Source of the DNA: Ricordea florida | Lineage: Eukaryota; Cnidaria; Anthozoa; Corallimorpharia; Ricordeidae | DNA: 64,000 bases | Direction of reading: 5' to 3' | NCBI GenBank assembly: GCA_949710005.1 | Contig: OX453287.1 | Coordinates: 16,804,060 to 16,868,059, forward strand | Part shown: piece after piece, positions 9,401 to 55,800 of the stretch | How positions within the stretch are numbered: the first letter of the stretch is position 1 | Layout: each line of letters opens with the position of its first letter | The notes under the pieces: model-generated | Told to the model about the DNA's origin: nothing | The model's input: the letters and a program-made list of their open reading frames with translations, nothing else | The model's database searches: none | Made by a program: the position numbers and the translations under genes

Positions 9401-10262
9401 CGACTTTGAAAAAGATTTTTTCAAGTTAATGAATAACTCCGTATTTGGGAAAACAATGGAAAACATTAGAAATAGGGTTGACATTAGATTAGTTACAAAC
9501 CAAAAAGATGCGAAAAAATTAATATCAAAACCTAACTATCAGCATCGCACTATCTTTTGTGAAAATCTTGTAGCCATCCACATGAAGAAAAAAAAGTTAG
9601 TATTCAATAAACCCGTTTACTTAGGTATGTGCATTCTGGATTTAAGTAAAACAATAATGTACAACTTTCATTATAATTATATCAAACCAAAGTATGGAGA
9701 AAAGGCTAAATTGCTTTTTACAGATACTGATAGTCTCGCATATTTGATAGAAACGGAAGATTTCTACAAGGACATTGCCCCAGATGTTATGGAAAGGTTT
9801 GACACTTCCAATTTTCCTGAAAACCATAAATCAGGTATTAAGACCGATAAAAACAAAAAAGTCATCAATAAGTTTAAGGATGAAGCTGGCGGTCAACAGA
9901 TAGCAGAATTTGTAGGTCTAAGAGCCAAGTTATACTCATACAGGATGGATGAAGGTGAAGAGATAAAAAAGGACAAAGGGGTAAAGACATCAGTAGTAAA
10001 AAAGACAATAAGCTTTAATGATTACAAAAATTGTCTATTCAATAAACAGCCACAAATGAGACAGATGAATGTAATCAGAAGTCATATGCATGATGTTTAT
10101 ACCGAAACTGTTAACAAAGTTGCATTGTCTTGCGATGATGACAAAAGAATAATTTGTGAAGATGGAATAAATACTTTTGCCTACGGCCATTATCGGGTGG
10201 AGCCCTCCCCAGCAGAGCTGGATCTTATCAAAATAGAATTAGGAGGCAACTCAGTATCATAG
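6390..10262 (+). CDS. polB: protein-primed-type DNA polymerase B with SAP and HNH modules
   Basis: This 1290-aa protein would copy the element's linear DNA in the nucleus or particle factory. In order: SAP-like motif (residues 3-38), linker, C2H2-like finger (C412, C415, H428, C432), ExoI core VDFE (470-473), HNH/endonuclease-VII-like cluster with CHIC and LDHCHLTGKYRGAAHNEC (572-602), ExoII NLSGYD (618-623), ExoIII YHDLYLMSD (774-782), palm motif A DANNLYG (878-884), motif B KLMNNSVFG (1012-1020), motif C FTDTDS (1110-1115) and a KLY motif (1180-1182). All catalytic motifs are present. The start is the ATG inside the TIR. The last 73 bp overlap the convergent integrase gene, and a 30-bp hairpin insertion there adds ten codons relative to E2. 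Confidence 0.97.
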   Translation: MENLERLNVPQLKQLAREQGIPRYYWLRRAQLIEVLNNIPNQQQRPAPAPINNILNQQQRYILDEPIPEINVPILEPSKPTSKSTLVENLGRKVIKANKKFTDWILSLIPENIKKTVKERVERQKEKFNRIFKSLTPKEKQTALKGYLKTHRIDGQKGYGPKTFINKIKPKVIDLIKKQKKPIKIKFIFTCKFIKKNPATRQTDENSGYFHSTVETITSSSDLSELFDTMTNGLLEKAEKFQNEGSGWQFNQVEYFDINIDPFEPFVGSSYINLPQKLAVKKAIINVRNENDHECFKWAVTSAVYIQDIHPERQNKEMIENSKNFNWSGIEFPTSLKQIDRFEKQNPKYTINVYGYDNDDVYPLRISKKQKGELINLLLISEDENNHYCWIKNMSRLLASKVSKHKSKMYFCPRCLNAFQSEKSLEKHLEYCGANKEVKIDMPKDEDGNPKYIKFNNYNRKMRVPFVVYVDFECHPEKIDTCSPNESESFTNKYQKHKASGFSYLIKSFDDELFPPELVQYTAESSDDDIPQIFVDNLEQDIKKIYNKTKYHKKAENISETDKKEYENATQCHICERELGEDKVLDHCHLTGKYRGAAHNECNLNYKIPKFFPVIFHNLSGYDAHLFIKNLSATEGKINCIPNSEEKYISFTKQIVVDKFINKEGKQIDVKRDIRFIDSFKFMASSLEKLVTNLPKESFKNLNIFYKGEELKVLFRKGVFPYDWFDGFDKLNETQLPPKDAFYSILNDEKITEDDYKHAQKVWETFNMKTMREYHDLYLMSDVLLLADVFENFRDVCQTHYGLDPAHYYTSPGLAWDAALKITKVNLELLTDIDMLLMIEKGIRGGVSMISTRYGKANNPHMKEYDPNLPKTYIEYLDANNLYGGGMSEPLPTHGFKWMTDKDLSDWENTPCILEVDLEYPTHLHDLHNDYPIAPERIVVNKVEKLIPNLNNKVKYVVHHKTLKLYQSFGLKITKIHRGIAFKESDWLKSYIELNTNLRSKANNDFEKDFFKLMNNSVFGKTMENIRNRVDIRLVTNQKDAKKLISKPNYQHRTIFCENLVAIHMKKKKLVFNKPVYLGMCILDLSKTIMYNFHYNYIKPKYGEKAKLLFTDTDSLAYLIETEDFYKDIAPDVMERFDTSNFPENHKSGIKTDKNKKVINKFKDEAGGQQIAEFVGLRAKLYSYRMDEGEEIKKDKGVKTSVVKKTISFNDYKNCLFNKQPQMRQMNVIRSHMHDVYTETVNKVALSCDDDKRIICEDGINTFAYGHYRVEPSPAELDLIKIELGGNSVS

Positions 10263-11230
10263 GGTATAACCTGAAGTTCTTCCCTCACAAAACCTCGTCT
10301 GGGACCATCCAGCAAATAATATAAAACCGGCTGATTAGGTGAAATTACACTTCTTGAAATATTATAAACTTTAATACTCCAAATAGGATCAGTAGCTCGT
10401 CTTTTTTCTCCACCCTCAAGTTCCCCCGGAGATAATAAATATCTAACTTTAACACCAGGAGGCAATTTAACCTCATAAAGCCCCACAACCCGCTGATAAT
10501 TTTTTGGTTCAATATCAACTTCTTTCTGTTTTATAGCCTCATCAGGTTCTTTACCAGTTATTTTCGTAGGTGTATTATTCAAAGTTTTCAAAATATCAGG
10601 TAGCCGTTTTACCCATACTCTTGATCTTTCATCACTAATCATTTCTTGTGCATATTGATGACTAAATAATCTTTCACCTAATATTCTATTTGCTCTTTCC
10701 ACAAATGCTTGAGCTCTATGGTTTCCAGCTTCACTTCTTTGAATTTTTACATTATGGTAATTCATAAGTTTTGTAACATCACCCATAAATTCTCTTCCTG
10801 GATCAACCATTAATGTTTTAGGATATTTTAACTTCGCTTCGCGGTCTATTTTTCTAGAATATATTTTTTCAAAAGCTTTTGATATCTCATGACTTTCTTT
10901 TGAAATTAATGGCTCTGCATCTTTATATCTTGAGGCAACATCAACCACAACTAACGCATATTTATATGTTTTTCTTCCAACTCTATCATGTGGTAAAAAT
11001 AATAAATCTGCCTGATGAATCTGATTAGGTTTATCCACAGTCCAGCGCGTTCTAGGAATATACTTTGGGACCGGTAGATATATTTGCCATATTGCCTGTT
11101 TTTCAAGCCATTTTTTAGCCTCATCTTCACTTACTTTTGCTATCTCAGCTAATTTAGGTATTGCTGAATATCCTTTCCAATATCCTAAAGTTGAATAATA
11201 TATTTTCGATAACATGCTTTCGTTACTCAT
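10190..11230 (-). CDS. retroviral-type DDE integrase
   Basis: The 346-aa product would join element ends to host DNA. A helical N-terminal part (about 1-60, possibly DNA-binding, no HHCC finger seen) precedes the RNase-H-fold core with D75 in HQADLLF, D143 in MVDPGREF and E178 in AFVERANR, the D-x-D(35)E spacing of the rve family. The C-terminal 100 residues end in RRGFVREELQVIP, resembling the SH3/chromo-like tail of Polinton integrases. The gene runs opposite to its neighbours, overlaps the polymerase tail by 73 bp and diverges from the capsid gene over a 34-bp gap. Relative to E2 it has a five-residue insertion IDREA, coded by a small CGC-GAA-GCG hairpin, and ten extra C-terminal residues. 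Confidence 0.95.
   Translation of the reverse strand: MSNESMLSKIYYSTLGYWKGYSAIPKLAEIAKVSEDEAKKWLEKQAIWQIYLPVPKYIPRTRWTVDKPNQIHQADLLFLPHDRVGRKTYKYALVVVDVASRYKDAEPLISKESHEISKAFEKIYSRKIDREAKLKYPKTLMVDPGREFMGDVTKLMNYHNVKIQRSEAGNHRAQAFVERANRILGERLFSHQYAQEMISDERSRVWVKRLPDILKTLNNTPTKITGKEPDEAIKQKEVDIEPKNYQRVVGLYEVKLPPGVKVRYLLSPGELEGGEKRRATDPIWSIKVYNISRSVISPNQPVLYYLLDGPRRGFVREELQVIPYDTELPPNSILIRSSSAGEGSTR
10195..10221 (-). repeat. 27-nt double-hairpin element in polB/integrase overlap
   Basis: On the minus strand: CCAGC pairs with GCTGG around TCT, spacer GGA, then GGGC pairs with ACCC (one G-T) around TCC. It forms most of a 30-bp insertion relative to E2 and is translated on both strands. Confidence 0.75.
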
Positions 11231-11237
11231 TTAAAGA
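11230..11237 (+). promoter_or_regulatory. TTTAAAGA box
   Basis: TTTAAAGA begins 35 bp before the capsid gene ATG and its first T is the last base of the integrase start codon complement, so the divergent pair shares this gap. Confidence 0.6.
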
Positions 11238-11264
11238 TTACTCTGCTCTTCCTTAAAATAAAAT

Positions 11265-12524
11265 ATGACAAACGTATCTGAAAAAATTAACCCAAACAGG
11301 ATTCCAAGAGATCCCCTAGGGTTGAAAGCGGAATCAACATTGAATAGAATTACACTTAACCCATCATCAGCCAATCCTGGAGAAACTCTATACATAAATA
11401 TTCCAAAACTTACTGATAATTTAGTTATTGTACCTGGAAGTGTATATCTAGTATTTAACTTGACTGTTGAGGGGCATGAAGATAACACCCTAGTGAATAA
11501 TGTAGGTAGTAACCTTGTATCAAGACTCAGGGTTATTTTTGGAGGTGAAACACTACAGGATACTCAAAGATACGATCTATTTCAAACCTACCACGACTTA
11601 TTCTTAACAGATGAAGAAAGAGAGGATGGATTAAGGCAAGGTATTTCTTCTGAAAACATGAGGAAACTCAGGACAAATGCAGGTGATAAGGTAGACACAG
11701 ATGCAAAGGAAGTAGCACTTGCAGTAGTACACAACACCAAGTACCATATCCCAATAAACCATCCTATTCTCAACGATCATGGGGTTTTCTACCCAAAGGC
11801 ATTTGATCATCAACTAATATTTGAGATTACACTGGCTCCAGTTAACGATATTGTTGTTTATTCTGATAATACCAAGACTCCAACTTATAAAATCACAAAC
11901 CTTGAGTTAGAATATTCTTGTATATCAAGCGAATACTTAGCTCGTGAGGCACAGGCAGCTTATCAGGTTGGTAAAGGATTCTTTTATGAGAATGTAACTC
12001 TACACAAAACTTTCACCATATCCAGACCTACAGACAGCGTTATAAATCAACATATTAATCTACCGAGAAGGTCAATTACAGGCATATTATGTTTGTTTAT
12101 ATTACCACACGTTGGAGGATCACGAGATTCTGAGAATTTTTTCAATCCAGGTATCGACTCAATCAATGTTGATGTTAATGGTGTACCAAATCGTTTCTAC
12201 TCTAAGGGAATGGTACCTTCAGACCTCTGGGAGTCGGTAAAGAAACGTTTCAGTGATTCTGCTCGATGGTCTGGTTCCTCCCGCTGGTCGGTAAAGGAAA
12301 AGGATTTTTATAGTAATAAGTTTGCCTTGTGGTTAGATTTGAGAACGCATCCAGATAATAGCATTCATGGAGGGGGCCTGGCCTTAAACAACGCGCAAGA
12401 TGGTATAAAAATAGAAATGAAAAGAAAAGTTGGAGGAACCGGTATTATGACCTGTTACATGTTTGTTGTAGCTGATGCGTTGATGGAGGTTATGAATTCA
12501 AACTTAAGATCAATCATGTACTAA
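11265..12524 (+). CDS. candidate major capsid protein (double jelly-roll type)
   Basis: The 419-aa protein is beta-rich without membrane segments. Residues 25-60 alternate like jelly-roll strands (GETLYINIPKL, VIVPGSVYLVFNL), followed by LVNNVGSNLVSRLRVIFGGE and a helical YDLFQTYHDLFLTDEER, a pattern I associate with hexon-like capsid proteins of Polintons and related viruses. Its position directly before the packaging ATPase fits. The assignment is inference from pattern and context; a structure prediction would decide. At 419 residues it is shorter than many Polinton hexons. About 80 percent of positions look shared with the E2 copy; a variable patch follows KKRF near residue 325. Confidence 0.62.
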   Translation: MTNVSEKINPNRIPRDPLGLKAESTLNRITLNPSSANPGETLYINIPKLTDNLVIVPGSVYLVFNLTVEGHEDNTLVNNVGSNLVSRLRVIFGGETLQDTQRYDLFQTYHDLFLTDEEREDGLRQGISSENMRKLRTNAGDKVDTDAKEVALAVVHNTKYHIPINHPILNDHGVFYPKAFDHQLIFEITLAPVNDIVVYSDNTKTPTYKITNLELEYSCISSEYLAREAQAAYQVGKGFFYENVTLHKTFTISRPTDSVINQHINLPRRSITGILCLFILPHVGGSRDSENFFNPGIDSINVDVNGVPNRFYSKGMVPSDLWESVKKRFSDSARWSGSSRWSVKEKDFYSNKFALWLDLRTHPDNSIHGGGLALNNAQDGIKIEMKRKVGGTGIMTCYMFVVADALMEVMNSNLRSIMY

Positions 12525-12534
12525 CTTAAAAATC

Positions 12535-13161
12535 ATGGAAGAATTACGAGATAAAATTCCTTTTCATTGCATTATAACAGGTCCAACAAATTGTGGAAAG
12601 ACAAAGTACATCATAGATCAACTCCGAGGTCCATTTCGAAAATTGTTTGAATTCATTGTTTTAATATGCCCAACTTATTCTAAAAATAAAACATATCATA
12701 ATTTTGCTCGAGGAGATAAACATTTCTATGTGTTATCGCCTGATTCAAGTAATATAGATGAGATTAATGAGTTATTAACTGATTGTCAAACTTTGTTCTC
12801 TGGTACAAATACACTAATAATTTTAGATGATTGTGCTGTTTCTAATGATCTGAAGAAAAGATCCAATAAATTTATTGATTTAGCATTTTCTGGAAGACAT
12901 CATGGTTTATCAGTGTGGGTTCTAACTCAGCAATTAACATCAATAGCAAAACCATTCCGTGAAAATGTGGCTTGCGTTGTTACTTTCCATAACCCATCAC
13001 AAAAAGGTATGAAGATGTTTTTCGAAGATTATGGTGGTGATTTAGACCCCGAAACTAGTAAAAAATTTGTAGAACTACTGAAAAAAGAAAAATATTCTAG
13101 AATCTGTTTGTGTTTACGTTATCCATTTAATTTCTATTTGGAAGTTCCAAACGGAGCGTAG
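12535..13161 (+). CDS. A32/FtsK-like genome-packaging ATPase
   Basis: The 208-aa ATPase would pump element DNA into capsids. Walker A is GPTNCGKT (16-23), Walker B is LIILDD (94-99), and SVWVLTQQ near residue 125 fits the following polar motif of the HerA/FtsK-type viral packaging ATPases. The size is typical of the short Polinton and A32 enzymes. It starts 10 bp after the capsid stop with no box of its own, so the two are probably co-transcribed. The C-terminal tail diverges from E2 where E1 carries about 75 extra bases with GC-rich palindromes just past the stop. Confidence 0.93.
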   Translation: MEELRDKIPFHCIITGPTNCGKTKYIIDQLRGPFRKLFEFIVLICPTYSKNKTYHNFARGDKHFYVLSPDSSNIDEINELLTDCQTLFSGTNTLIILDDCAVSNDLKKRSNKFIDLAFSGRHHGLSVWVLTQQLTSIAKPFRENVACVVTFHNPSQKGMKMFFEDYGGDLDPETSKKFVELLKKEKYSRICLCLRYPFNFYLEVPNGA

Positions 13162-13220
13162 CGAAGTGCGGAACTCAACAAAAGGGAGCAGCCTGAAGTT
13201 ATAAATTTCCACCTCGCGGG

Positions 13221-13232
13221 GCCCTAACGGGC
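13221..13232 (+). repeat. hairpin GCCC-TAAC-GGGC
   Basis: A perfect 4-bp stem with a TAAC loop abuts the following CTTAAAGA box. It sits in GC-rich material (13150-13232) absent from the same gap of E2, so it is likely inserted. Confidence 0.5.
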
Positions 13233-13239
13233 TTAAAGA
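13232..13239 (+). promoter_or_regulatory. CTTAAAGA box
   Basis: Begins 35 bp before the ATG of the 185-aa gene and is followed by an ACCT...AGGT dyad. Confidence 0.55.
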
Positions 13240-13266
13240 CCTGACTGTAGGTAAGAAAATTATAAA

Positions 13267-13824
13267 ATGGCAGAAGTTGAAGATTATATTGAAGAAGAAA
13301 AGACTGACCGACCGCAGGGAGGAATGGGGAAAGATGATGATGATAATGAACTTGAAATAAAACAAGAATCACTAGCTATTCTCGCAGCTCTTGGAACTAC
13401 AAAGGAATATTTAGGCGTTGATATGAGTCTTGGTGATATAAAAAAATTATCGGTAAAAGACATTGAAAAATATTATAATCGATATCAGGCAGTATTAGGT
13501 AAGAAAATTAACGGCGGATTGGTGGATTCGTCCCTACAATTAGTTTCTAAACTTATTTCATATTTAGTTCCAGTTGATGATATAGAATCTCTTTGCGATG
13601 ATTTGAAGAATGATGATTTGGTTAATCGCGAACTAACAAACATTGTAGGTCTCTTAGCATTGAAAGCAGGAAGATTGGCAGCACTTGCTAGCGGTATATT
13701 CCAGGTTGCTAAACACATCAAATTCAACAAAATTAAACAAGTTACAAGTACAATTACAGATGATTCTAACAAAACTGAACAGGATACTAAGCAAGATGCT
13801 AATGAGTATGATACTGTTTACTAA
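13267..13824 (+). CDS. conserved element protein, 185 aa, function unknown
   Basis: An acidic N-terminus (about 1-35, variable between elements) precedes a helical domain strongly conserved with the E2 copy, including EIKQESLAILAALGTTKEYL and KYYNRYQAVLGKKI. A moderately hydrophobic helix near 125-150 (LTNIVGLLALKAGRLAALAS) could be membrane-associated or amphipathic. The tail is polar and ends in TVY in both elements. I recall comparable proteins in other invertebrate Polinton-like elements but know no function. Its own upstream box and its place in the capsid block suggest a virion or morphogenesis role. Confidence 0.85.
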   Translation: MAEVEDYIEEEKTDRPQGGMGKDDDDNELEIKQESLAILAALGTTKEYLGVDMSLGDIKKLSVKDIEKYYNRYQAVLGKKINGGLVDSSLQLVSKLISYLVPVDDIESLCDDLKNDDLVNRELTNIVGLLALKAGRLAALASGIFQVAKHIKFNKIKQVTSTITDDSNKTEQDTKQDANEYDTVY

Positions 13825-13862
13825 GCATACTATTATTTTATTTACATATCATTCCTAAGCGG

Positions 13863-13870
13863 TCTAAAGA
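13863..13870 (+). promoter_or_regulatory. TCTAAAGA box
   Basis: Begins 30 bp before the chosen ATG at 13893; TTTCTTAATGATATGTAA follows, as in E2. Confidence 0.55.
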
Positions 13871-13892
13871 TTTCTTAATGATATGTAAAATA

Positions 13893-14357
13893 ATGTCTGA
13901 CCAAACTGAACAAATTGAAGGAGGAACAGAAGTTGAGCAAATTACTAGAGATCCCTACAAAGAGGAACAAAAAACAACAAGTAATGTTTCTAAAAAGAAA
14001 GACCCTAAAAAGGTTGCTGCTGGTAAGAAACTGGCGGAATATAATAAAAAAGCTAAAGAAGCATTAGCTAGGGAAATGAAACGTGAAAGGGAAAAAGCGG
14101 TGCAAAATGAAAATACAGAAAGTGAGTATAATCAAGAAAAGACAAATAATGAATTTAAAGCTTGGCTTCCAGAGCTATCTTTTACCACTGTTTTATCCAT
14201 TGTTGGAATAGGGTTTACAGCATTTGATATGTTTATGAGATACCGACAAAAGGAGGATAATAAAAATAGAATACCTGATTTATCGCAAGTTCCTCAATTA
14301 CCACAACCATCAAAAATACCACAGCAGCCAGATCGACCAAAAATTGGAATGATGTAA
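13893..14357 (+). CDS. small basic protein with one membrane segment, 154 aa
   Basis: The start is placed at the ATG of MSDQTEQ because an ATG at 13878 lies inside the conserved leader shared with E2 and other genes. A polar N-terminus leads to a lysine-rich stretch KKDPKKVAAGKKLAEYNKKA (about 40-60), then LSFTTVLSIVGIGFTAFDMF (about 100-120), a probable membrane helix, and a proline-rich tail ending IGMM. A basic DNA-contacting arm joined to a membrane helix would suit a virion membrane or core protein, but that is inference. The E2 copy keeps both modules. Confidence 0.85.
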   Translation: MSDQTEQIEGGTEVEQITRDPYKEEQKTTSNVSKKKDPKKVAAGKKLAEYNKKAKEALAREMKREREKAVQNENTESEYNQEKTNNEFKAWLPELSFTTVLSIVGIGFTAFDMFMRYRQKEDNKNRIPDLSQVPQLPQPSKIPQQPDRPKIGMM

Positions 14358-14376
14358 TGTAAACCATAAAGGTATT

Positions 14377-14399
14377 CAGCGTAGCTGGCCCTAAAGGGG
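14377..14399 (+). repeat. double-hairpin variant before the 72-aa gene
   Basis: CAGC-GTA-GCTG (14377-14387) is followed one base later by CCCT-AAA-GGGG (14389-14399). Two 4-3-4 hairpins in tandem resemble the 27-nt elements but in different sequence. It is absent from the E2 gap. Confidence 0.5.
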
Positions 14400-14407
14400 T
14401 CTAAAGA
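14400..14407 (+). promoter_or_regulatory. TCTAAAGA box
   Basis: Begins 33 bp before the ATG of the 72-aa gene. Confidence 0.55.
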
Positions 14408-14432
14408 TTTCTTAATGATACAGTAAAAAATT

Positions 14433-14651
14433 ATGTCAACTGAAAACAAACTTGTGAAAACTGTTACTGATTCAGCAGTCCTTATTGGATTGGCAGCTTT
14501 AGTTGGATATGTAGCTAAAAAGGCCATGAGAGAATCATTTATGAACGACCCCTCGTCAAGTATTACAAACTATGCTAAATGGGTGGTTGTATTGTCGGGT
14601 AGTATGTACCTAAAAACATATTTAGAGGATCAAAAGATTTTACCGACCTAA
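14433..14651 (+). CDS. small membrane protein, 72 aa
   Basis: Two hydrophobic stretches are visible: AVLIGLAALVGYVAKKA (about 14-30) and AKWVVVLSGSMYLKTYL (about 47-63), separated by a short polar loop with FMNDPSSSITNY. The E2 protein is the same length and differs at only about six positions, so it is under strong constraint despite its size. It may be a virion membrane protein or viroporin-like; neither can be shown. The next gene starts 26 bp after its stop without a clear box, so the two may be expressed together. Confidence 0.85.
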   Translation: MSTENKLVKTVTDSAVLIGLAALVGYVAKKAMRESFMNDPSSSITNYAKWVVVLSGSMYLKTYLEDQKILPT

Positions 14652-14677
14652 AGGAGAATAACCTCAAATTTAAAAAA

Positions 14678-15070
14678 ATGGCAACAATAGCAATGATGTT
14701 TGGAGGAGCTATTTTGAATGCAACAGCCTTTGTTGGGGGGTCATATCTTGCAAAATATCTCTCAGGTGATAAAACAGATACAGAAAAAATAAGACACGAT
14801 AAGGCATTAGAAAAATATCAAAAAGATTATGCTGCATATCAGGAAAATAGACAGAAACTAATTGATTGGAAAGTACAAAAAAAGGATGCAAAATACCAAG
14901 CTATAAAAAATATTTCGAATACAGATGAAGCTTTGAAATTGTATAGTGAGACACATGAACCAAAATTTGCTGATTATTATAGACCCAGCGAAAATCAAAA
15001 GATGGGTGAAATGGCATATGTAGGTGGTGGTATGTTGGCTTTGGGTTATATGGTAAGTAAATTCTTTTAG
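14678..15070 (+). CDS. conserved protein with N- and C-terminal hydrophobic segments, 130 aa
   Basis: Residues 2-27 are hydrophobic (MMFGGAILNATAFVGGSYLA), a charged helical stretch of about 60 residues rich in K, D and E follows, then a DYYRPSENQKMGE motif near 95-107 and a final hydrophobic VGGGMLALGYMVSKFF. I recall the D-Y/F-Y-x-P-S-x-x-Q-K-x-G-E motif in small proteins of other Polinton-like elements; no function is known to me. The E2 copy has a ten-codon in-frame insertion just before this motif, made by a double hairpin. Confidence 0.88.
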   Translation: MATIAMMFGGAILNATAFVGGSYLAKYLSGDKTDTEKIRHDKALEKYQKDYAAYQENRQKLIDWKVQKKDAKYQAIKNISNTDEALKLYSETHEPKFADYYRPSENQKMGEMAYVGGGMLALGYMVSKFF

Positions 15071-15107
15071 TTAATTGTGTGGTCAGTTTTCTTCGCGGCC
15101 TAAAGGG

Positions 15108-15115
15108 TCTAAAGG
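15108..15115 (+). promoter_or_regulatory. TCTAAAGG box
   Basis: Variant box beginning 33 bp before the ATG at 15141, with the TTACT...AGTAA dyad after it. Confidence 0.5.
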
Positions 15116-15140
15116 TTTCTTACTGATTAGTAAAAAAATC

Positions 15141-16358
15141 ATGGCAGAAGGAGGGGATATACCTAAAGAAATACCAGACTTTGAACCAACTGATCTAGAC
15201 GATGATATTGATAGAGAAAATATGGAAATGGATCCAATATCATCATCCACCCGTCTAATTAACCCTGATGATGATTATGAAGAAGAAACTTCATTTGGCG
15301 GTAGGAATTATGAGAAGGAGGGTGCTATACCTAAATTACCTAGTGATAAATATGATAATAGGATTGAAGCTTTGCAATACATAAAAAGGTTGTTTCCGGA
15401 TTTCAACCCTTTGGATTCTCCATTTACAGCAGAATGGGATAAGGAGGGTAATTTAAAAGTTACATTGAGCGGTAGGGAAAATGCTGTAGAACATATATTG
15501 ATTGATAAAGATGGAGTAATAAAACTTGATAAGGCGGGTAAAACAATCATAAAAGCTCTAGGTGCCGATTATGAATCCATGCTTATAAAAAATAATAATC
15601 TTTTATCACAATTGAATGAAGCTAATGAACAAAATATGGAATTACTTAATGTAGTACAAGGATTGGAAGCAACCACAAAAGTATATCCTATGGAGATTAG
15701 TCGATATGAAGAAAAAGAAAAAGAACTACGGCAATTCGCTGAGAAACAACAAGTGGAAAAAACGGAAATTAAAAGTCTTTTTGATGCAACTGTTAAACAA
15801 AATATAGAATTAAAAATACAGAAAGAGAAACTTTTGAATGAAGTAAAATTATACAAAGATGAAATAGATAAGTATAAGAAGGGACAGTCAAATTTAACAA
15901 TGTTAGAACGTGGTAATGAAAGATTACAATCTGAAGTTGATAAATTTAAAGAACTAGCAAGAAAGAGTATTATTTACAACCAAGAACAAAAAGCTGATCT
16001 GGAGAGTAAAAATGAAGAAATACTTAAAAATCTACCATTACGAGAGAGGGTAAAGTATATCTTCAAAAAGTATGGGTTTACAGTATTTGCGGTTGTGAGT
16101 GCTGTTGGTGTTGTTATTGGTGTTATCGTTTCTAATCTTTCAAAAGGTCTAACAACATTAGGAAAAGGTGTGGGAAATGGTTTTAAAGCTATTGGTAAGA
16201 AACTAGGTGAAATATTACCAGGGATGGTTGGAGCGATTGTAAGCTTTCTCTTCAAAACAGCGGGTGAGGTAATTGGATTTTTAGGTAGGAATGCTTGGCT
16301 TTTGATAATGGCTGTTGTTATATATTTTGTGGAACAATTTAAAAAGAAGAGAAAGTAG
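15141..16358 (+). CDS. coiled-coil protein with C-terminal membrane-active domain, 405 aa
   Basis: The start at 15141 (MAEGGDIPK) aligns with E2 and lies 33 bp after a box; the frame is open further up but not conserved. An acidic N-terminus is followed by a long coiled coil (about 155-310, rich in K, E, Q). The last 95 residues are well conserved with E2: RVKYIFKKYGFTVFAVVSAV, a glycine-rich amphipathic stretch, GEILPGMVGAIVSFLF and LLIMAVVIYFVE before KKKRK. I recall this C-terminal domain in many Polinton-like sequences. It may span or lyse membranes during entry or act as a structural anchor; this is inference. Confidence 0.9.
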   Translation: MAEGGDIPKEIPDFEPTDLDDDIDRENMEMDPISSSTRLINPDDDYEEETSFGGRNYEKEGAIPKLPSDKYDNRIEALQYIKRLFPDFNPLDSPFTAEWDKEGNLKVTLSGRENAVEHILIDKDGVIKLDKAGKTIIKALGADYESMLIKNNNLLSQLNEANEQNMELLNVVQGLEATTKVYPMEISRYEEKEKELRQFAEKQQVEKTEIKSLFDATVKQNIELKIQKEKLLNEVKLYKDEIDKYKKGQSNLTMLERGNERLQSEVDKFKELARKSIIYNQEQKADLESKNEEILKNLPLRERVKYIFKKYGFTVFAVVSAVGVVIGVIVSNLSKGLTTLGKGVGNGFKAIGKKLGEILPGMVGAIVSFLFKTAGEVIGFLGRNAWLLIMAVVIYFVEQFKKKRK

Positions 16359-16368
16359 ATTCAAAAAC

Positions 16369-16758
16369 ATGAATGATACAATATTTTTATCTATCACTAT
16401 GCTAAATAATGAAGCAAGAATTTACCTAGATCCGCCCCTAACCAATGTAAAAGAGATACAATTACAATATTTTTTCTTTCTTAAATCAAACTATGTAAAT
16501 CCTTTATACTTAATGTGTGATCTTATTGAGCCAAAGTCTTCATATACAGATTGTTGTAAAACCTCAAGTGAAACTATAAAACTTAAACCCTCTCAAGTAC
16601 TAGCTGTTATTCCAACATACCAAGAGCATAATTCTTTAAGAATTCCACAAACTAAAAATCCAGTCAACCACTTTACTTTATGGATTTTAGATGAAAATGG
16701 AAAAAAGCTCAATTTAAATAACCAACCTGTTCGAATTCATTTAAAGGTTAAATGTTGA
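16369..16758 (+). CDS. truncated paralogue of the minor capsid protein, 129 aa (E1 only)
   Basis: Starting at MNDTIF, the first 25 residues (LSITMLNNEARIYLDPPL, then NVKEIQL) match the start of the 211-aa minor capsid candidate in this element, and the last 75 residues match its C-terminal half (LYLMCDLIE, LKPSQVLAVIP, NHFTLWILDENGKKLN). About 80 residues between are missing, as if by internal deletion, yet the frame stays open. E2 has nothing here; its neighbouring genes are 38 bp apart. It starts 10 bp after the previous stop and ends 10 bp before the next start, so it is probably read from a shared transcript. It could be a functional short form or a decaying duplicate. Confidence 0.8.
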   Translation: MNDTIFLSITMLNNEARIYLDPPLTNVKEIQLQYFFFLKSNYVNPLYLMCDLIEPKSSYTDCCKTSSETIKLKPSQVLAVIPTYQEHNSLRIPQTKNPVNHFTLWILDENGKKLNLNNQPVRIHLKVKC

Positions 16759-16768
16759 GTAGTAAAAA

Positions 16769-17374
16769 ATGGATGAGTACAATAGAATTTATCCACAAAT
16801 TTCCGGGCGATTAACTAATAATACAGACCCAAATAATTTCAGACTACAAAAGTCATGCGAAGTACTACAAAATATTGAGAAGGAAATTAAACATTACGAG
16901 GATGTTAGGAAAAAGTATAATCGAGCTAGAGGTATATTTACAAAAATCAGTGTTTGTAGTGGTGTTCTTTCAGTTATTCTATCTGCAAGTGGGCTTGGAA
17001 CTTCCCTTACTGGATTTGGTGCTGTTGTCGGTATTCCATTAGGAGCTGTGGGAGGTATTTGTGGTGGAATATCGGTTGGATTCAGTTCAGCTTCTAAACG
17101 ACTTTCCCATAAAGTTAGTAAACATGAACAGACAGTTTCTATAGCAAAAGCAAAAGTAAACACCATTCACGACTTGGTTTCAAAGGCTCTAAAAGATAAC
17201 GCAATATCTGACCAAGAATTTTCGTTAATTTTATCAGAGGTGGATAAGTTTGAAAAACTAAAACTAGAAATCCGCCAAAAAACTCGAAAAGATACAGAAA
17301 AAAACTTAAATATGAATCAGATAAGGAGAGAAGTTCGAGAGGAAATATTAAAAGAACTAACCGGTCCGGCATAG
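16769..17374 (+). CDS. membrane protein with glycine-rich hydrophobic core, 201 aa
   Basis: A charged N-terminal helix (EKEIKHYEDVRKKYNRARGI) is followed by a hydrophobic glycine- and serine-rich region of about 60 residues (VLSVILSASGLGTSLTGFG to ISVGFSSASKRL) that could form two membrane helices, then a helical C-terminal half with KHEQTVSIAKAKVNTI, DNAISDQEF and a basic tail. I recall similar proteins in other invertebrate Polinton-like elements without known function. The stop codon lies in the first loop of a double-hairpin element conserved in E2. Confidence 0.88.
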   Translation: MDEYNRIYPQISGRLTNNTDPNNFRLQKSCEVLQNIEKEIKHYEDVRKKYNRARGIFTKISVCSGVLSVILSASGLGTSLTGFGAVVGIPLGAVGGICGGISVGFSSASKRLSHKVSKHEQTVSIAKAKVNTIHDLVSKALKDNAISDQEFSLILSEVDKFEKLKLEIRQKTRKDTEKNLNMNQIRREVREEILKELTGPA

Positions 17375-17392
17375 CTGGGGAGGGCTCCGCCC
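17366..17392 (+). repeat. 27-nt double-hairpin element at the 3' end of the 201-aa gene
   Basis: Stem one pairs CCGGC with GCTGG around ATA (17366-17378), GGA is the spacer, stem two pairs GGGC with GCCC around TCC (17382-17392). The TAG stop overlaps loop one. E2 has an element at the same place with changed bases. Confidence 0.75.
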
Positions 17393-17507
17393 GATCCCAC
17401 ACATTAAAAATTTCATATGAGAGAACTGATGTGGGTTGTAATTGTTTTGCGGGGATTAGAAAAGAACTTAATTGACTTTACATCTTATTCTAGATAGGCT
17501 TTGCTTA
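17393..17507 (+). other. conserved non-coding block with possible micro-ORF
   Basis: This gap and the E2 gap 53659-53765 share a string of near-identical segments, including TCATATGAGAGAACTGATG. CCCACA (17395-17400) can pair with TGTGGG (17428-17433). A 26-codon frame from ATG 17417 reads MRELMWVVIVL; E2 shares that start but changes later are non-synonymous. An RNA structure or leader is as likely as a peptide. Confidence 0.45.
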
Positions 17508-17515
17508 TTTAAAGA
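17508..17515 (+). promoter_or_regulatory. TTTAAAGA box
   Basis: Begins 36 bp before the ATG of the 516-aa gene; the leader GAAACACAAAGAATAAG before that ATG is also conserved in E2. Confidence 0.6.
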
Positions 17516-17543
17516 CCATATTATCTGAAACACAAAGAATAAG

Positions 17544-19094: not shown

Positions 19095-19155
19095 ATGACT
19101 GGATTTTTCGGCTTACGCGTAAGTCGATTTTTATCACATACGGTGATTATATAAA

Positions 19156-19163
19156 TTTAAAGA
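19156..19163 (+). promoter_or_regulatory. TTTAAAGA box (distal)
   Basis: First of two boxes before the minor capsid gene, 55 bp before its ATG. The TTTAAAGATTAATATTG string resembles the single E2 box of this gene, so this may be the ancestral one. Confidence 0.5.
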
Positions 19164-19182
19164 TTAATATTGTGTAATCAGA

Positions 19183-19202
19183 TCTAAAGACCAGCTTCGC
19201 TG
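19183..19202 (+). promoter_or_regulatory. TCTAAAGA box with small hairpin
   Basis: TCTAAAGA begins 28 bp before the ATG at 19211 and is followed by CAGC-TTC-GCTG (19192-19202). The hairpin resembles a single arm of the 27-nt element and is absent from E2, so a second box may have arrived with it. Confidence 0.5.
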
Positions 19203-19210
19203 AAAACAAA

Positions 19211-19846: not shown

Positions 19847-19895
19847 ATTTTTGTTATATAACCAGTAATTAGGTTATATAACATAATTTTTTTAA

Positions 19896-46800: not shown

Positions 46801-49800
46801 TTTTTCACCACCCTCGAGTTCACCAGGAGATAATAAATATCTAACTTTAACACTAAGAGGTAATCTAACCTCATCAAGACCCACAACTCGTTGATAATTT
46901 TTAGGACTAATATCAACCTCTTTCATTTTTATAGCTTTATCAGGTTCTTTACCGGTTATTCTCGTCGGTGTATTGTTCAAAGTTTTCAAAATATCAGGTA
47001 ATCGTTTTACCCATACTCTAGATCGATCATCACTTACCATTTCTTGTGCATATTGATGACTAAATAATTTTTCACTTAATGTCCTATTTGCTCTTTCTAC
47101 AAATGCTTGTGCTCTATGATTTCCAGCTTCACTTCTTTGTATTTTCACATTATGGTAATTCATAAGTTTTGAAACCTCGCCCATAAATTCTTTTCCAGGA
47201 TCAACCATTAATGTTTTGGGATATTTTAACTTTCTAGAATAAATTTTTTCAAAAGCTTTGGATATCTCATGACTTTCTTTTGAGGTTAATGCTTCAGCAT
47301 CTTTGTATCTACTTGCCACATCAACCACAACTAATGCATATTTAAATGTTTTTCTTCCAACTCTATCATGTGGTAAAAATAATAAATCTGCTTGATGAAT
47401 CTGATTAGGTTTTTCTACAGTCCAGTGTGGTCTTGGTATATACTTGGGAGCTGGAAGATAAATTTGCCATATTGCTTGTTTCTCTAACCATTGTTTTGCT
47501 TCATCTTCACTTACTTTCGCCTTCTCAGCTAATTTAGGAATTGCAGAATATCCTTTCCAATATCCTTCAGTTGAATAATATATTTTTGATATCTTTTCGT
47601 TACTCATTTAAAGATTAACCAAAGCATCTTATAAATTAAAATGGAGGAAGAAATCGAGCAAAGCTCTCCCCAGCAAAGCTGGACAAAAATAAATTTTAGC
47701 GAATACCAAATTAATATGATGAAAAAAATTATAATTTCAAAAATTCACAATATGGAAGATGGCGATGAACTTTTTAATCTTATGCTTGTAATTGAAGGAG
47801 TAAGAGAAAGTTTAGTAAAATATATTGAAGAATTAGATAATAAAAAATACCAATTCAGATGCCTATGAGGTTTAAAGATTAACCAAAGTATCTTATAAAT
47901 TATACAATGACGTCTGAAAAAATTAATCCAAACAGAATTCCTAGAGAGCCATTTGGTTTGAAAGCAGAATCAACAATGAATCGAATTACTCTCAATCCAT
48001 CCTCAGCTAGCCCTGGAGAAACATTATATATAAATATTCCAAAACTTTCTGAGAATTTAGTGATTGTACCAGGAAGTGTATCTCTACTATTTGATTTAGA
48101 TGTAGATGGGCATGCTAATAACACACTCGTGAATAATGTAGGTAGTAATCTTGTATCTAGACTTAGAGTTCTTTTTGGTGGTGAAACATTACAGGATACT
48201 CAAAGATATGATCTTTTTCAAACCTATCATGACTTATTCTTAACAGATGAAGAACGCGAAGATAGATTAAAACAAGGTATTTCTTCTGAAAACATGAGAA
48301 AGCTAAGGACAAATGCGGGTGATAAGAAAACACAAGATGTTAAGGCAGTGACTCTTGCATCAGTACATAACACCAAGTATCGTATACCACTAAACCATCC
48401 TATTCTAAACGATCATGGAGTTTTTTACCCAAAAGCTCTAGATCATCATCTAATATTTGAGATTACACTTGCTCCAATTAATGATATTGTTGTTTATTCT
48501 GACACTACTAAGACTCCATCTTATTCAATCAAAAACCTTGAGTTAGAATATTCTTCCATTTCAAGTGAATACTTGGCTCGTGAGGCACAAGCAGCTTATC
48601 AAGTCGGCAAAGGGTTTTTTTATGAAAATGTTACTCTACACAAAACTTTTACATTTTCTATAGGCGGTGATAGTGTTATAAATCAGCATATTAATCTACC
48701 CAGAAGATCAATGACAGGGATATTATGTTTGTTTACATTACCAATTGCAGCAGGAGCACGTAACTCTGAGAATTTTTACAATCCAGGTATAACCTCGATC
48801 AATATAGATGTTGATGGCGTGCCAAATCGTTTATATTCTAAAGGAATGATACCATCGGATCTATGGGAGTCAGTAAAGAAACGTTTTGGACTGACCGAAG
48901 GGAGGCATTCAGGTTCCTCCCGCTGGTCGGTAAAGGAAAAGGATTTTTATGCTGATAAGTTTGCTCTTTGGGTTGATATGAGAACTCACCCAGATAATGG
49001 TATTCATGGAGGTGGTCTAGCATTAAACAATACACAAGATGGTGTAAAACTAGAAATTAAAAGAAAACAAAGTGGATCTGGCACTATAACCTGTCATATG
49101 TTTGTTGTAGCTGATGCAATGATGGAGATTATGAATTCAGGTTTACGCTCCATTAAGTACTAAATTTAAAAAAATATTATGTTATGATACAAAAAAAAAT
49201 CATGGAAGAACTACGAGAAAAAATACCATTCCATTGTATCATAACCGGCCCAACAAATTGTGGAAAAACAAAGTACCTCATCAATCAGCTAAGAGGACCA
49301 TTCCGAAAAATTTTTGATTACATTGTTTTAATATGTCCAACTTATTCTAAGAATAAAACTTATCATAATTTTGCTCGAGGAGATAAACGTTTCTTTGTAT
49401 TATCACCAGATGCTAGTAACATTGATGAGATTAATGAGTTATTAACTGATTGTCAAACTTTATTCTCTGGAACAAATACATTAATAATTTTAGATGATTG
49501 TGCTGTTTCGGGTGATCTGAAGAAAAGATCTAACAAGTTTATAGATTTAGCATTCTCTGGAAGACATCACGGATTATCAGTTTGGGTTCTCACTCAGCAA
49601 TTAACATCCATAGCAAAACCATTCCGTGAAAATGTAGCTTGTGTTGTTTCATTCCATAATCCATCACAGAAGGGTATGAAGATGCTTTTCGAAGATTATG
49701 GGGGTGATTTAGACTCTGAAACTAGTAAAAAGTTTGTACAACTCCTGAAAACTGAAAAATATTCTAGACTTTGTTTATCTTTACGTCACCCATTTAATTG

Positions 49801-52800
49801 CTATTTGGAGATTCCTTCAGAGCTCTAACGAGTTTAAAGACCTGACCTTAGGTAAGAAAATTGCAAGATGACAGAAATTGAAGATTATATCCGCCTGGAA
49901 GGCGAGCCCGGCTCCGCCGATATAGAAGAAAAGACTGTAGGAAAGACAGAGGTAAAAGATAATGAACTTGAAATCAAACAAGAATCACTAGCCATTCTCG
50001 CAGCTCTTGGAACCACAAAGGAATATTTGGGAGTTGATATGAGTTTGGGGGATATAAAAAAATTATCAGTAAAAGACATTGAAAAATATTATAATCGATA
50101 TCAGGCAGTATTAGGTAAGAAAATTAATGGTGGGTTAGTAGATTCATCTCTTCAATTAATTTCTAAAGTTATTTCTTACATGGTTCCTGTAGATGATATA
50201 GAAGCTCTTTGTGATGACTTGAAGAATGATGATTTGGTTAATCGTGAACTAACAAACATTGTAGGGCTATTAGCATTGAAAGCAGGAAGATTGGCAGCAC
50301 TTGCTAGCGGGCTATTCCAGGTTGCTAAACACGTTAAATTCAACAAAATACAAGAAGTTTCAAGGACAATTACAGATAATGCTAACACAACTGAGCAGGA
50401 TACTAAGCAAGATGCTAACGGTACTGATACTGTTTACTAAGCATTATGTGATTGATTTAAAGATTTCTTAATGATATGTAAAATAATGTCTGAAGAAGTT
50501 GTTGAGCAAATTACAAGAGATCCTCCAAAAGAAGAGGAAAAAACTACAGGAAAAAAAGCAAAAAATCCTAAAAAAGTAGAAGCTGGTAAGAAATTAGCTG
50601 AATATCATAAAAAAGCAAAAGAAGCATTAGCTAGGGAAATTAAACGTGAAAAGGAACAAGAGGAGATTAAAAATGGAGAAGAAAATTACAATGGAGAAGA
50701 AAATGGAAAAGCATGGATTCCAGAGCTATCTTTTACTACTGTTTTATCCATTATTGGAATAGGGTTTACAGCATTTGACATGTTTATGAGATATTATAAA
50801 AATAGAATACCTGATTTATCACAAGTTCCTACTAAAGTTTCACCCTCAAATATTCCTGTGTCACAATCACCAACAACACAGATTCCGAAAATAGGAATGT
50901 TATAAGTAGAAAGTAGTTTAAAGATTTCTTACTGTTTAGTAAAAAATCATGTCAAGCGAAAATAAACTTGTGAAAACTGTTACTGATTCTGCAGTCCTTA
51001 TCGGATTAGCAGCTGGAGTTGGTTATGTAGCCAAAAAGATGATGAAAGAATCATTTATGAACGACCCATCCTCAAGTATTACAAATTATGCAAAATGGGT
51101 TGCTGTATTATCGGGTAGTATGTACCTAAAAACATATTTAGAGGATCAAAAGATTTTACCAAATTAAAGAATAATAATGGCATTTGTTTCAATAGCAATG
51201 ATGGTTGGAGGAGCAGTATTAAACTCAACAGCATTTGTTGGTGGGTCATATCTCGCAAAATATTTATCAGGAAATAAAACTGATGCAGAAAAAATAAGAC
51301 ACGATAAAGCAATGGAAAAATATCAAAAAGATTATGAAGAATATCAGGAAAAAAGACAAAAACTAATGGATTGGAAAATGAAGAAAAAAGATGAAAAATA
51401 TCAAGCATCAAAAAATATTTCAAAAACAAATGAACAATTTGCATTATATAACCAAATGCAACCGACGGAGCTGGGGAGAGCTTCGCTCGAAGAACCTAAA
51501 TTTTCAGATTATTATAGACCTAGTGACAATCAAAAGATGGGCGAAATGGTATATGTAGGCGGTGGTATGATGGCATTGGGGTATGCAGCTAGTAAATTTT
51601 TATAGATACTTCACTGTGTTCGATTTAAAGATTTCTTACTGTTGAGTAAAAAATCATGGCAGAAGCAGGAGATTTAGATCCAACTGAACTAAATGATCCA
51701 AAAGATGATGATGATGGAGGTAATAATGATACAATTTATTTGACGCCAACTAGAACATCCACCTCTATTGATAAAGATTATGCTGGTTATGATGAATATA
51801 ACCGATCGAAGGTAGGAATAGATGAAGAAGTAAGGAGCCGGGCTGTATGGGACAAACCGGCTGAAGCTAGGAACCTGAGTGATGTTTTGAAAGAAAGAGA
51901 TGAGGAATATGATAGAAGGCGAGAAGCTGGTCAAGAACTCAAACGTTATTTACCAACTTACAATCCTAATGATGTGACATTTAATGTAACATATGGGAAA
52001 GATGGTAGTATAATGGTAGAATTTAGTAATAGGGAGAATTCTGTACCGCATATCGTGCTTACTAAAGATAAAGTTCTTATGCTTGAAGATTTACCAAAAA
52101 CAATGAGAAAAGCTCTAGGTGCTGATTATGTAACAATGATTGAAAGATATAATAATACCATATCACAATTAAATGAAGAAAAAGAAAAAAATATAGAATT
52201 AGAAAAAATTGCGGATGGATTGATGGTGGAAATAAATGTACATCCGCAGGAGATTAGTAGATATGAAGAAAAAGAAAAAGAACTACGTCAATTCATTGAG
52301 AGACAACAGGTAGAAAAATCAGAAAATAAAATTCTTTTTGATGAAACTGTTAAACAGAATATAGAATTAAAAATACAAGGCGAAAAACTTTTGAATGAAA
52401 CAAAATTATACAAAGAGGAAATAGATAAATATAAGAAGGATAAATTAAATTCATCAAAGTTAAAACAAAGTAATGAACGATTAAAATCTGAGATTGTTTC
52501 ATTAAATGAACAATTAAGAAATAAAACAATTTCTATCGAAGAACAAAGATCTGATATTCAGGGTAGAAAAGAAGAAATACTTAAAAATCTACCATTACGT
52601 GAGCGGATAAAGTATATATTCAAAAAGTATGGGTTTACAGTCTTTTCTGTTTTAAGTGCAGTAGGTGTAATCATTGGTGTTATAGTTTCTAATCTTTCTA
52701 AAGGCCTATCCAAATTGGGTAAAGGTGTTGGTAATGGTTTGAAAACTCTTGGTAAAAAACTGGGTGAAATATTACCAGGATTGGTTGGAGCTATCGTGAG

Positions 52801-55800
52801 CTTTCTATTTAAAACAGCCGGTGAGGTTATTGGATTTTTAGGTAAGAATGCTTGGTTATTGATAATGGCTGTGGTTCTATATTTTGTGGAAAGTATAAAA
52901 AAGAAGAGAAAGTAACAAATTTAAAGATATCATACCGTTCAGTAAAATACAATATGGAAGACTACAATAGAATTTACGGCGTATCGACCGAAGGTCTCCC
53001 GGGCTTCGCCCGAGCCGGTCCCGAGCAAATTCGGGCAGAGCCCTCCCCACAAAGCGGAAGCTCGATTTATCCTAGATTACCTAATAATTCAGATCCAGTC
53101 AATTTCAGACTACAAAAATCGAGTGAAGTATTACAAAATCTCGAGAGAGAAATTAAACATTATGAAGATGTAAGGAAAAAATATAATAGAGCAAGAGGAA
53201 TATTTACAAAAATCAGTGTTTGTAGTGGAATGCTTTCTGTTATTCTATCTGCAAGTGGACTTGGAACTTCTCTTACCGGTTTTGGAGTCATGATTGGCGT
53301 TCCGTTGGGTGTTGTCGGTGGAATTTGTGGCGGAGTATCTGTTGGATTTGGTGCGGCTTCAAAAAGACTTTCAAATAAAGTTAGCAAACATGAACAGACT
53401 GTTTCCATAGCAAAATCAAAATTAAACACCATTAACGACTTGGTTTCAAAGGCATTGAAAGATAATGTTATATCCGATCAAGAATTTTCTATAATTTTAG
53501 CAGAGTTGGAAAAGTTTCAAAAACTAAAACTGGAAATCCGTCAAAAATTTAGGAGAGATACAGAAAAAAACTTAAACATGTCTCAGATAAGGAGAGAAGT
53601 TCGTGCAGATCTATTAAAAGAGTTAACCGGTCCAGCTTAGCCGGGGAGGGCTTTGCCCGATCCCACACGTTGAAAATTTCATATGAGAGAACTGATGTGG
53701 GTTGTAATTGTTTTGCAGGTATTAGAAAAGAAATTAATTGATAATAATTTACATCTTATTCTAGATCTAAAGACCAGACTCATTGAAACACAAAGAATAA
53801 GATGTTATTCGATAATTTCAAAAATAGATACCCAAAAGCTAGTCTTGATAAATTTACATTTGTGAATGATTCATATGGTGGCTATATTAGGTGGAAATAT
53901 AATGAGATGACTGTCATGTCTAATGATGATCCTACTGGAAAAACATGGACTGATGATCTTTCTCCTAATTTGAAAACATTGTTATGGGAAGATTTAGGGT
54001 TAAGTTTACCGGAAGTAGTTTCATCTTTTCCAAAGAGTTTATCCATAACCAATCGAACTTACCCAATACCAGCTATTAACTTTGATGACTTTACAACTGA
54101 TGTAACAAAAATGCTAACCTTTCTAGATATATACGTTTCAAATACGAAGAAATTCACAGCAAAAATGAGAAACATATTTACATCACAAGTTGTAACATTC
54201 AAGTTTGGTAAACAAAGTAGAAAATGGTTGAATGCCCCAGATATGAATTATTGGCCGCAACAACTTAACTTTGCAGTATGGTGTGCAACATCTGGTTGTG
54301 GTATAAGTCCTTTCGAGAGTCTAAATTATCCTAAAGTAATTAGTAGTTTTATAAAGTTTCATATATATTTCACAATAAGGCGAATATTGTATGAATTGAA
54401 ACTGCCTTTGCCAGATGAACAACCTTTTGTGATAAATAATAATCCATATAATAAAGTTGCATATCAACGATTGTGTGCTGAATTTGGGGTTAGTAATAAT
54501 TCTGATTTTAGATGGAAAGGTGGAAGAAACGGGGGTTTAGGGGATATATTCCTTGATTATGGTTCTGGATTCCATGGAAGAGGTGGAGGATATCAAAATG
54601 TACATGTAGTAAGAAATTACGATCATGAAGCAGACCAATGGCCCGGTGAAGGCGGTAAATTCGCCGATGAAGGTGGTAAGAAAGAAAAGGGTAATCTAAT
54701 ATCATTTATCCGTAATGATGACTTTGCTGATTTCAAATATGCTTGGTTTATTCCTACAAATGGACATGGACTCACTAAAGCTGGACTCGGTAGATTGAAT
54801 CGATCCGCTGAAGCTTTTGTTTACTGTATATTGGGAGCACAAGTTAACACTAGAAACTCGATTTATGGTAATGGTGGTGGAGCAATCGAGACACAACAAG
54901 AATTCTTAGCTTTATTTGAAAGTAGTGTGATTGAGAATGACATTTCTAGCTCTATCCAAAGATATCAATTAGCTGTACAAGAAGCGAAATTACGGCTTGA
55001 TTTAGCTATTGCTCCAGGTTTGTGGTTGATGCCAAGTAATATGATCATAAACACAGAGAGCGTGGTTGGATATAATAACAAACTTATGAAAGCAACTGGT
55101 GATATGAAATTTGGGGTTAATAATTCGCTAAACACGGAATCAAAACCGGTCGGAATAAGTCATAACATGGGATCTTCAAAGGTAAAGTTACCTCATATAG
55201 CTGAGACAAATCCAAAACCTTTACTGATCGAAGGGAAACCAAAGGAAAACCCCGTAGGGAAACCAAAATCCACAACTCTGAATGAAAAGTCCGGCTCTGC
55301 CGGGGAGAGCTTCGCTCGATCGGACGTGACCACGCAACATGAAGATAATATATTAGCAATTATAATTGCGACTGGCGTATTTGCGTGGTATCTATTTCGG
55401 TAGTTCATGACCATTTCACGTGATTATCATTGTTTATGAATTATCTTTCACGTGTAGAACAATAGATTGCATACTTTTACGACATAGCAACAAGCAAAAT
55501 GTAAAGTGGATTTGAAATCGAAAAGTAGATTTTATGTTTACTTTAAAAAGGTCGGTTTCTAACGTCGCTCAGGAATGTGATTACGTCAATGCAAATTTTT
55601 GTTATTGTTTTGATTATAGAAATTACGGCATAGCAAAGCTCGATTTAAAGATGAATATGATGTAATCAAAACAAAATGTTGAGTATTACCATGTATGATT
55701 CAGAAACTAGGATTTATTTAGACCCTCCACTGAAAAATCTTCGAGAGATACAGCTACTAGATTGTAATATACAAAACAAAAGATTGATTAATTTCAAGGA

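Follow-up and report, generated by a model that had tools for sequence, protein, structure and literature searches.

A 64-kb stretch of the 538-Mb genome of Ricordea florida (contig OX453287.1; hereafter the window) carries two Polintons, A and B, in the same orientation, and both contain copies of a short double hairpin that we call type I. The unit follows a T and consists of a hairpin of 4-5 bp, the spacer GGA, a second hairpin of 4-5 bp and the end GAT, and it is usually 30 nt long. Repeated clean insertion of this unit, that is, its mobility, is strongly supported by the comparison of Polinton copies. We propose, with a probability of about 60%, that type I units form a family of mobile Polinton DNA elements that are very short and non-autonomous and that move as folded single-stranded or cruciform DNA by means of a factor acting in trans. 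A sequence-only reading of the window had already claimed a scattered, covarying double-hairpin insertion element in Polintons, similar to Rickettsia palindromic elements (RPEs) or mitochondrial double-hairpin elements (DHEs). This core claim is supported, while the unit length of 27 nt given there had to be changed to 30 nt, as comparison of filled and empty alleles showed that GAT belongs to the unit. All results described here come from one genome.

The evidence for mobility lies in the presence or absence of the unit at corresponding places of different Polintons. Clustering of the flanks defined 33 insertion sites, among which sites 14 and 32 are probably one. We found that 21 of the 33 had an empty allele in another Polinton, with the flanks directly joined (a match at 19 or more of 28 junction bases with no more than one gap), and at seven sites (0, 8, 9, 14, 15, 29 and 32) the best junction matched at 28/28 bases. 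This clean presence and absence in aligned copies rules out ordinary conserved coding sequence and agrees with the earlier view that the units are true insertions. Type I was inserted on both strands, in genes and between genes. Copies nested within other copies were identified at three loci (L035, L034 and L052), and two different element sequences occupied the same place in L044 and L047. Decayed copies were also detected, namely shortened remnants with 7-12 nt left at four places (L052, L065, L009 and L054) and point-mutated copies in L015, L044, L065 and L067. The remnants are imprecise, indicating that the empty alleles did not arise by deletions of this type.

The insertions shared a simple target. 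T was present at position -1 in 77/78 copies and at 32/33 sites, and weaker preferences were seen for G at -3 (16 sites), T at -2 (16 sites) and C at +1 (19 sites). The unit ended with GAT in 73 of the 78 copies and was exactly 30 nt long in 69, and this length was kept with stems of 5+4 bp (CCRGC/GCYGG and GRGC/GCYC) as well as with stems of 4+5 bp (CCGC/GCGG with either GGCCC/GGGCC or GGGGC/GCCCC). Because the unit ends in T, an insertion can be parsed either as 30 nt placed after a T or as 29 nt with a one-base (T) duplication. No target duplication longer than possibly this one T was observed, and the unit is without terminal inverted repeats. Moreover, insertion within an older GC hairpin was found at 10 of the 33 sites (seven in the loop and three in the stem), compared with 12 of 3013 random T positions under the same criterion.

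Eight type I copies were identified in the two Polintons of the window (Table 1): the six sites to which one double-hairpin architecture had been ascribed (10195, 17366, 47656, 51462, 53632 and 55291 in the earlier numbering), together with 52983 and 53030. A covariance model was built from 22 copies, the six named sites being among the training sequences, and run over the whole window. It recovered all six with 37 to 51 bits (E 5e-7 to 3e-10), and 53030-53058 (minus strand), which was absent from training, scored 28.6 bits (E 5e-5); the best match outside the Polintons had an E value of only 1.9. Four variants had been listed as well, and those at 53000 and 53033 proved to be members (52983-53012 and 53030-53057), while those at 14377 and 49892 did not. 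Only 17366/53632 is common to A and B and constitutes one shared site; among the other six copies, 10195 is in A, and 47656, 51462, 55291, 52983 and 53030 are in B. The five sites previously thought to be occupied in one element only thus become six of the eight copies. Empty alleles were identified for 52983..53012 in L015 and L025 (26/28 bases) and for 55291..55320 in L083 and L084 (25/28 bases). For 47653..47682 there was no empty allele at the strict threshold and there were five with looser flanks, and for 53030..53057 none was found among the compared Polinton copies. The 52983 copy was inserted in the loop of another hairpin (CGGC T^AC GCCG). Perfect stems were present in the window only at 47656, 55291 and 52983; one G.T or A.C pair occurred in each of 17366, 53632, 10195 and 53030, and two in 51462, both in the first stem, a copy which the flexible scan with free stems missed.

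We then considered abundance and chance. The exact core pattern was found at 540 places in the genome, and the reversed pattern at none. The earlier reading had staked itself on the existence of further copies, and these matches supply them. All 40 loci sampled from the genome-wide list carried Polinton genes beside the element, as detected by tblastn; the sample comprised the first 20 of contig 1 and 20 of contig 2, contigs of 48-49 Mb, with the remaining places of the 540 outside it. A free-stem scan requiring GGA and a G-starting end identified 78 copies in 234,822 nt of Polinton DNA, compared with 0 in 32,300 nt of the window's non-Polinton DNA and 0 in three shuffles under the same criteria. 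The scan took 77 sequences and left out L001-L008, which duplicate L009-L016, the contig end L049, and L050, which is the window. The 78 do not include point-mutated or truncated copies, and four point-mutated ones entered the comparison of variable columns below. Since the pattern itself had served to select 40 of the 77 sequences, density was taken from the loci chosen otherwise, that is, 17 copies in 29 ATPase-chosen loci (13/29 occupied), three in six downstream loci and seven in the window. Only nine of these 27 copies match the exact genome pattern, indicating that 540 is an undercount. In the window, the bare architecture with any stem sequence was at chance level (8 matches versus 3 to 8 in ten shuffles). 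However, the shared sequence was above it, with six sites carrying at most one consensus mismatch and 12 carrying at most six, when shuffles gave 0 to 2 at six. Together with the 540 versus 0 matches in the genome, this rejects a chance origin for the shared sequence.

Searches elsewhere gave few matches. The full pattern had 0 matches in IMG/VR and 0 in prokaryote genome contigs, and the Polinton capsid protein had no relative in IMG/VR. Of 1100 capsid proteins found, 120 were listed, and none of these contained the element peptide; of 3885 integrases found, 120 were listed, and one of these (P0123) contained it. Another integrase, P0149, carried an extra internal peptide, RPEGGSGFADL, not seen in the other integrases printed and possibly a further hairpin insert. 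In the literature searched, whose coverage excluded most subscription papers, no title or abstract start mentioned such repeats in Polintons.

Type I affects the genes that it enters. Coding sites were defined by a long frame of 150 codons without stop, and the length of the insert was divisible by three at 21/22 coding sites versus 5/11 others (p 0.0025), in line with the earlier claim that the frame is kept in coding regions. The sole exception is the 28-nt copy at 53030, which lies inside a compound insertion. The copy 55291..55320 adds the peptide SGSAGESFAR to its open reading frame (ORF), and that at 51462 is in frame inside ORF 51177-51605 (..PTELGRASLEE..). The loop of the 17366 element supplies the TAG stop of ORF 16769-17374, and with the 53632 element the TAG stop of ORF 52852-53640 is at 53638-53640; loops had been called free, which does not hold where they supply a stop codon. 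The copy 10192..10221 sits where the 3′ ends of polymerase (plus strand) and integrase (minus strand) overlap and is read in both, and the integrase stop codon straddles its 3′ end. The 3′ part of the capsid gene holds type I inserts in other Polinton copies (L028, L032, L038, L046 and L033). Copies were found at the ends of some genes and near the starts of others, and also within genes and between divergent ones. Hairpin terminators or viral transcript-end signals were therefore rejected, as the positions are not confined to 3′ gene ends.

The stems of type I varied in a coordinated way. Double-sided changes were found in five of nine pairs, and the covariation score was reached by 0/500 shuffles (22 distinct copies, relatedness uncontrolled). 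In seven site groups with at least four copies, 20/166 columns of stem, spacer and GAT were variable, compared with 187/547 in the flanks (Fisher 9e-9) and 15/44 in the loops (0.001). At site 8, located in the initial codons of the gene that follows the ATPase, stem changes were 0/24 and flank changes 42/73. All four CCRGC/GCYGG combinations occur within the 17366/53632 site, and site 14+32 holds the series GGGG/CCCC, GGGG/CCTC and GAGG/CCTC. The switching of stems with covariation that had been read from the window was borne out, although some of the switched stems there are intermediates with G.T or A.C pairs. A flank tree of the 17366/53632 site requires at least two gains or losses of the A-T stem, but only 2/8 of its inner branches are well supported. 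Because loops go with stems and few branches are supported, the changes may equally well reflect replacement by another copy or compensatory mutation. Perfect stems were found in 36/52 distinct copies, and the imperfect ones had nine G.T and nine A.C pairs on the element strand. These equal counts argue for DNA over a one-strand RNA structure, which is not supported.

Several points weigh against a mobile family moved in this way. Twelve of the 33 sites were without an empty allele among the copies compared, and three of the 21 empty-allele sites (6, 7 and 20) had a junction gap, site 20 matching at only 20/28 bases. The preference for hairpins may partly reflect tolerance of insertions in dispensable sequence. 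The stems of site 14+32 were as variable as its flanks (12/22 versus 38/74), partly because two different element sequences are present there (L044 versus the rest). The stem switches of site 0, for which the flank tree was built, track loop haplotypes (CCAGC-TTA versus CCGGC-ATA), so that copy replacement or re-insertion, and not compensatory mutation, may explain them. A purely selfish element would not be expected to remain under structural constraint once inserted. Moreover, no Pfam match to Y1 or HUH transposases was found in 18 Polinton ORFs, nine of which were searched only to E 0.01, and the link between Endonuclease_7 and type I movement is circumstantial. Restriction to one genome also weakens the proposal.

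We weighed four other explanations. It is unlikely that the hairpins are functional Polinton signals (transcript ends, processing, packaging or replication), conserved and not mobile. Such a role would account for the constraint on stems, spacer and GAT at shared sites and for the several copies at gene ends, one of which supplies a stop codon, but not for empty alleles at 21/33 sites, nested copies and insertion on both strands, nor for copies that lie close to the start of genes, in the space between divergent genes or inside a capsid gene; no Rfam family matched at gathering score in window 5800-58000. Covariation via G.T and A.C intermediates within one site, deletions inside elements and insertion in existing hairpins would fit templated mutation, in which polymerase fold-back makes or perfects short palindromes, giving pairing and covariation without selection or transposition. 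This does not predict that the unit is usually 30 nt long, that GGA and GAT are conserved, that a T precedes it or that unrelated sites share one sequence; as a full explanation we place it below a signal function, and it may still help stems to stay perfect.

A further explanation is that true transpositions were few and took place long ago, and that recombination or biased gene conversion between Polinton copies then spread the element within sites. This would explain why element sequences cluster by site, with several copies per site and numerous Polintons. We regard it as improbable, ranking behind templated mutation, since insertion must have been repeated to give at least 32 different sites, copies nested in copies and two sequences at one place (L044 versus L047), but gene conversion may contribute. 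We give hardly any credence to an ordinary miniature inverted-repeat transposon (MITE) moved by the Polinton rve integrase: this integrase is present, but the unit is asymmetric, and both the terminal inverted repeats and a target duplication beyond possibly one T are missing. A length of 30 nt is also shorter than that of any MITE known to us.

For the mobile family, we infer the following enzyme and mechanism. Polintons are thought to replicate by a protein-primed, strand-displacing polymerase, and long single strands are displaced. Type I would move as folded single-stranded (or cruciform) Polinton DNA during this replication. A trans-acting nuclease or transposase would identify the two hairpins from their shape and from the short unpaired tags, cut the donor ends after T (..T^ and GAT^) and link the unit to a new position behind a T, with hairpins as the preferred targets. 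The elements that survive would be those preserving the reading frame, and the structure would be held by selection for continued mobility or by homogenisation. The endonuclease-VII class cuts branched DNA, which makes the Endonuclease_7-like domain in the polymerase ORF a candidate branch or hairpin nuclease for such structures, but only a candidate. More tentatively, Polintons might own a hairpin-recognising single-strand transposition system that moves a 30-nt satellite by shape, not sequence, into hairpin loops. If true, Polintons would carry their own parasites or satellites that reshape their proteins, and type I would continually supply proviruses with new in-frame peptides and stop codons. 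To our knowledge, it would also be the first hairpin-recognising system of this kind in a eukaryotic DNA virus lineage.

Other hairpins and indels were observed in the Polintons. Double hairpins without the GGA spacer were found 13 times in 234.8 kb of Polinton DNA versus 0 in two shuffles, and 10/13 were preceded by T. One of these 13, in L067, represents a type I copy whose end is mutated; the others include 49892-49919, L015:403, L055:3511, L060:3442, L075:141, L013:1690, L025:637 and L045:878. Indel lengths between Polinton copies, compared with the same loci left out as in the free-stem scan, peak at 18 nt besides 30. Several indels contain GGTTCCTCCC..GGTC or the complementary sequence, in some cases as tandem copies, and they were found in the 3′ part of the capsid gene near 48906-48925 and in L020, L024, L029, L033, L034 and L079.

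Polintons A and B are 81-89% identical over the listed paired segments, and both carry terminal inverted repeats composed of 11-nt tandem arrays. The polymerase ORF of B shows a TDTDS motif in translation, which we take to point to a DNA polymerase, and in both polymerase ORFs the Endonuclease_7-like domain (DHCH..HNECN) is accompanied by N-terminal Rho_N-like matches. ORFs 20545-21111 and 56989-57444 (minus strand) consist of tandem zinc-ribbon-like repeats (CKECGGSQICEHGKQK); the copy number of their 54-nt repeat is unequal between A and B, and a Rho_N match was found at the N-terminus of ORF 20545-21111. A 44-nt tandem array at 4391-4908 lies outside both Polintons. Polintons in this genome are very numerous and fresh, as 142 of the 150 best ATPase matches were without internal stop at 94-100% identity (5042 first-look candidates).

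Table 1. Type I copies, other double hairpins, the two Polintons and their main genes in the window (CM, covariance model)
Feature	Position	Strand	Remarks
Type I	10192..10221	-	Polinton A only; 30-nt gap in B; CM 44.3 bits
Type I	17366..17395	+	Site shared with 53632; empty allele in L083, L084
Type I	47653..47682	-	Polinton B only, between integrase (-) and capsid gene (+); CM 49.5 bits
Type I, degraded first stem	51462..51491	+	Polinton B only; 30-nt gap in A; CM 37.3 bits
Type I	52983..53012	-	Polinton B only; stems CGGGC/GCCCG and GACC/GGTC, unrelated to the others; CM 44.6 bits
Type I variant, 28 nt	53030..53057	-	Polinton B only; in compound insertion near 5′ end of ORF 52852-53640
Type I	53632..53661	+	Orthologous to 17366
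Type I	55291..55320	+	Polinton B only; in frame in ORF 53802-55403
Other double hairpin, not type I	14377..14400		No GGA spacer; CM E 5.2; 29-nt indel between copies
Other double hairpin, not type I	49892..49919		In frame near start of ORF 49868-50440; CM E 9.2, partial match
Polinton A	5908..21586		Between terminal inverted repeats with 11-nt tandem arrays; inverted repeats I2, I3, I8, I22; ORF order as Polinton B
Polinton B	42105..57878		Same orientation as A; 501-nt inverted repeat I1 and direct repeats D6-D20
DNA polymerase ORF (B)	42539..46660	+	Embedded Endonuclease_7-like domain; Pfam Endonuclease_7 26.1 bits, cut-off 23.6
Polymerase ORF (A)	6390-10262		Endonuclease_7-like domain, 25.5 bits, cut-off 23.6
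rve integrase	46618..47607	-	Pfam rve 39.2 bits
Major capsid protein	47907..49163	+	Capsid_N 23.9 bits, just under cut-off 24
Packaging ATPase, A32-like	49184..49828	+	Pox_A32 50.2 bits

We compared type I with known short repeats. Like RPEs, it is a short palindromic repeat confined to one kind of genome and found many times in frame in unrelated genes. However, RPEs are about 150 bp long, and every one contains an ORF that encodes a conserved peptide (PMC10969869), whereas type I is 30 nt, has two hairpins and is read in several frames and on both strands. The DHEs of Allomyces and the RHEs of sponges are adjacent short hairpins with conserved stems and differing loops, some of them in genes, and the absence of flanking duplications is noted for the Allomyces DHEs (PMC2800124). 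Type I likewise has two adjacent hairpins, is dispersed and optional at orthologous sites, and has no flanking duplication beyond the possible T. It differs in residing in integrated dsDNA virus-like elements rather than mitochondrial DNA and in its GGA and GAT tags and T target, a distinction drawn from the published descriptions. The GC clusters of yeast mitochondria are also short GC-rich, partly palindromic insertions (PMC5558958), but their sequences differ from type I.

Closest in plan are the bacterial REPs with their TnpA-REP (HUH) transposase and the IS200/IS605 elements, which have a 20-50-nt palindrome beside a short unpaired tag, with single-strand recognition and cleavage at a CT step adjacent to the hairpin (PMC8266576). 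Type I, with its proposed cut after T, resembles this arrangement of tag, hairpin and cut. However, the REP tag is mostly GTAG, whereas the constant tags of type I are GGA and GAT; REPs are bacterial and mostly intergenic, and a tnpA gene was not found in the 18 ORFs scanned with Pfam to the limits given above. The Submariner MITEs of Pandoravirus are small inverted-repeat elements of a large DNA virus, at least one of them in a protein gene (PMC5799277), but they are true MITEs of a transposon family, and no such parent was seen with type I. Taken together, type I fits none of the compared families fully, as each fails or leaves open a defining feature. As far as we know, the movement of tiny palindromic repeats such as RPEs, mitochondrial hairpin elements and GC clusters has been hard to settle, since their copies are few and the genomes difficult to compare. 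The genome studied here provides type I copies by the hundred, at many sites, with empty alleles and nesting, and in what appears to be a single kind of replicon, making target rule, strand, frame and enzyme testable for type I within this genome.

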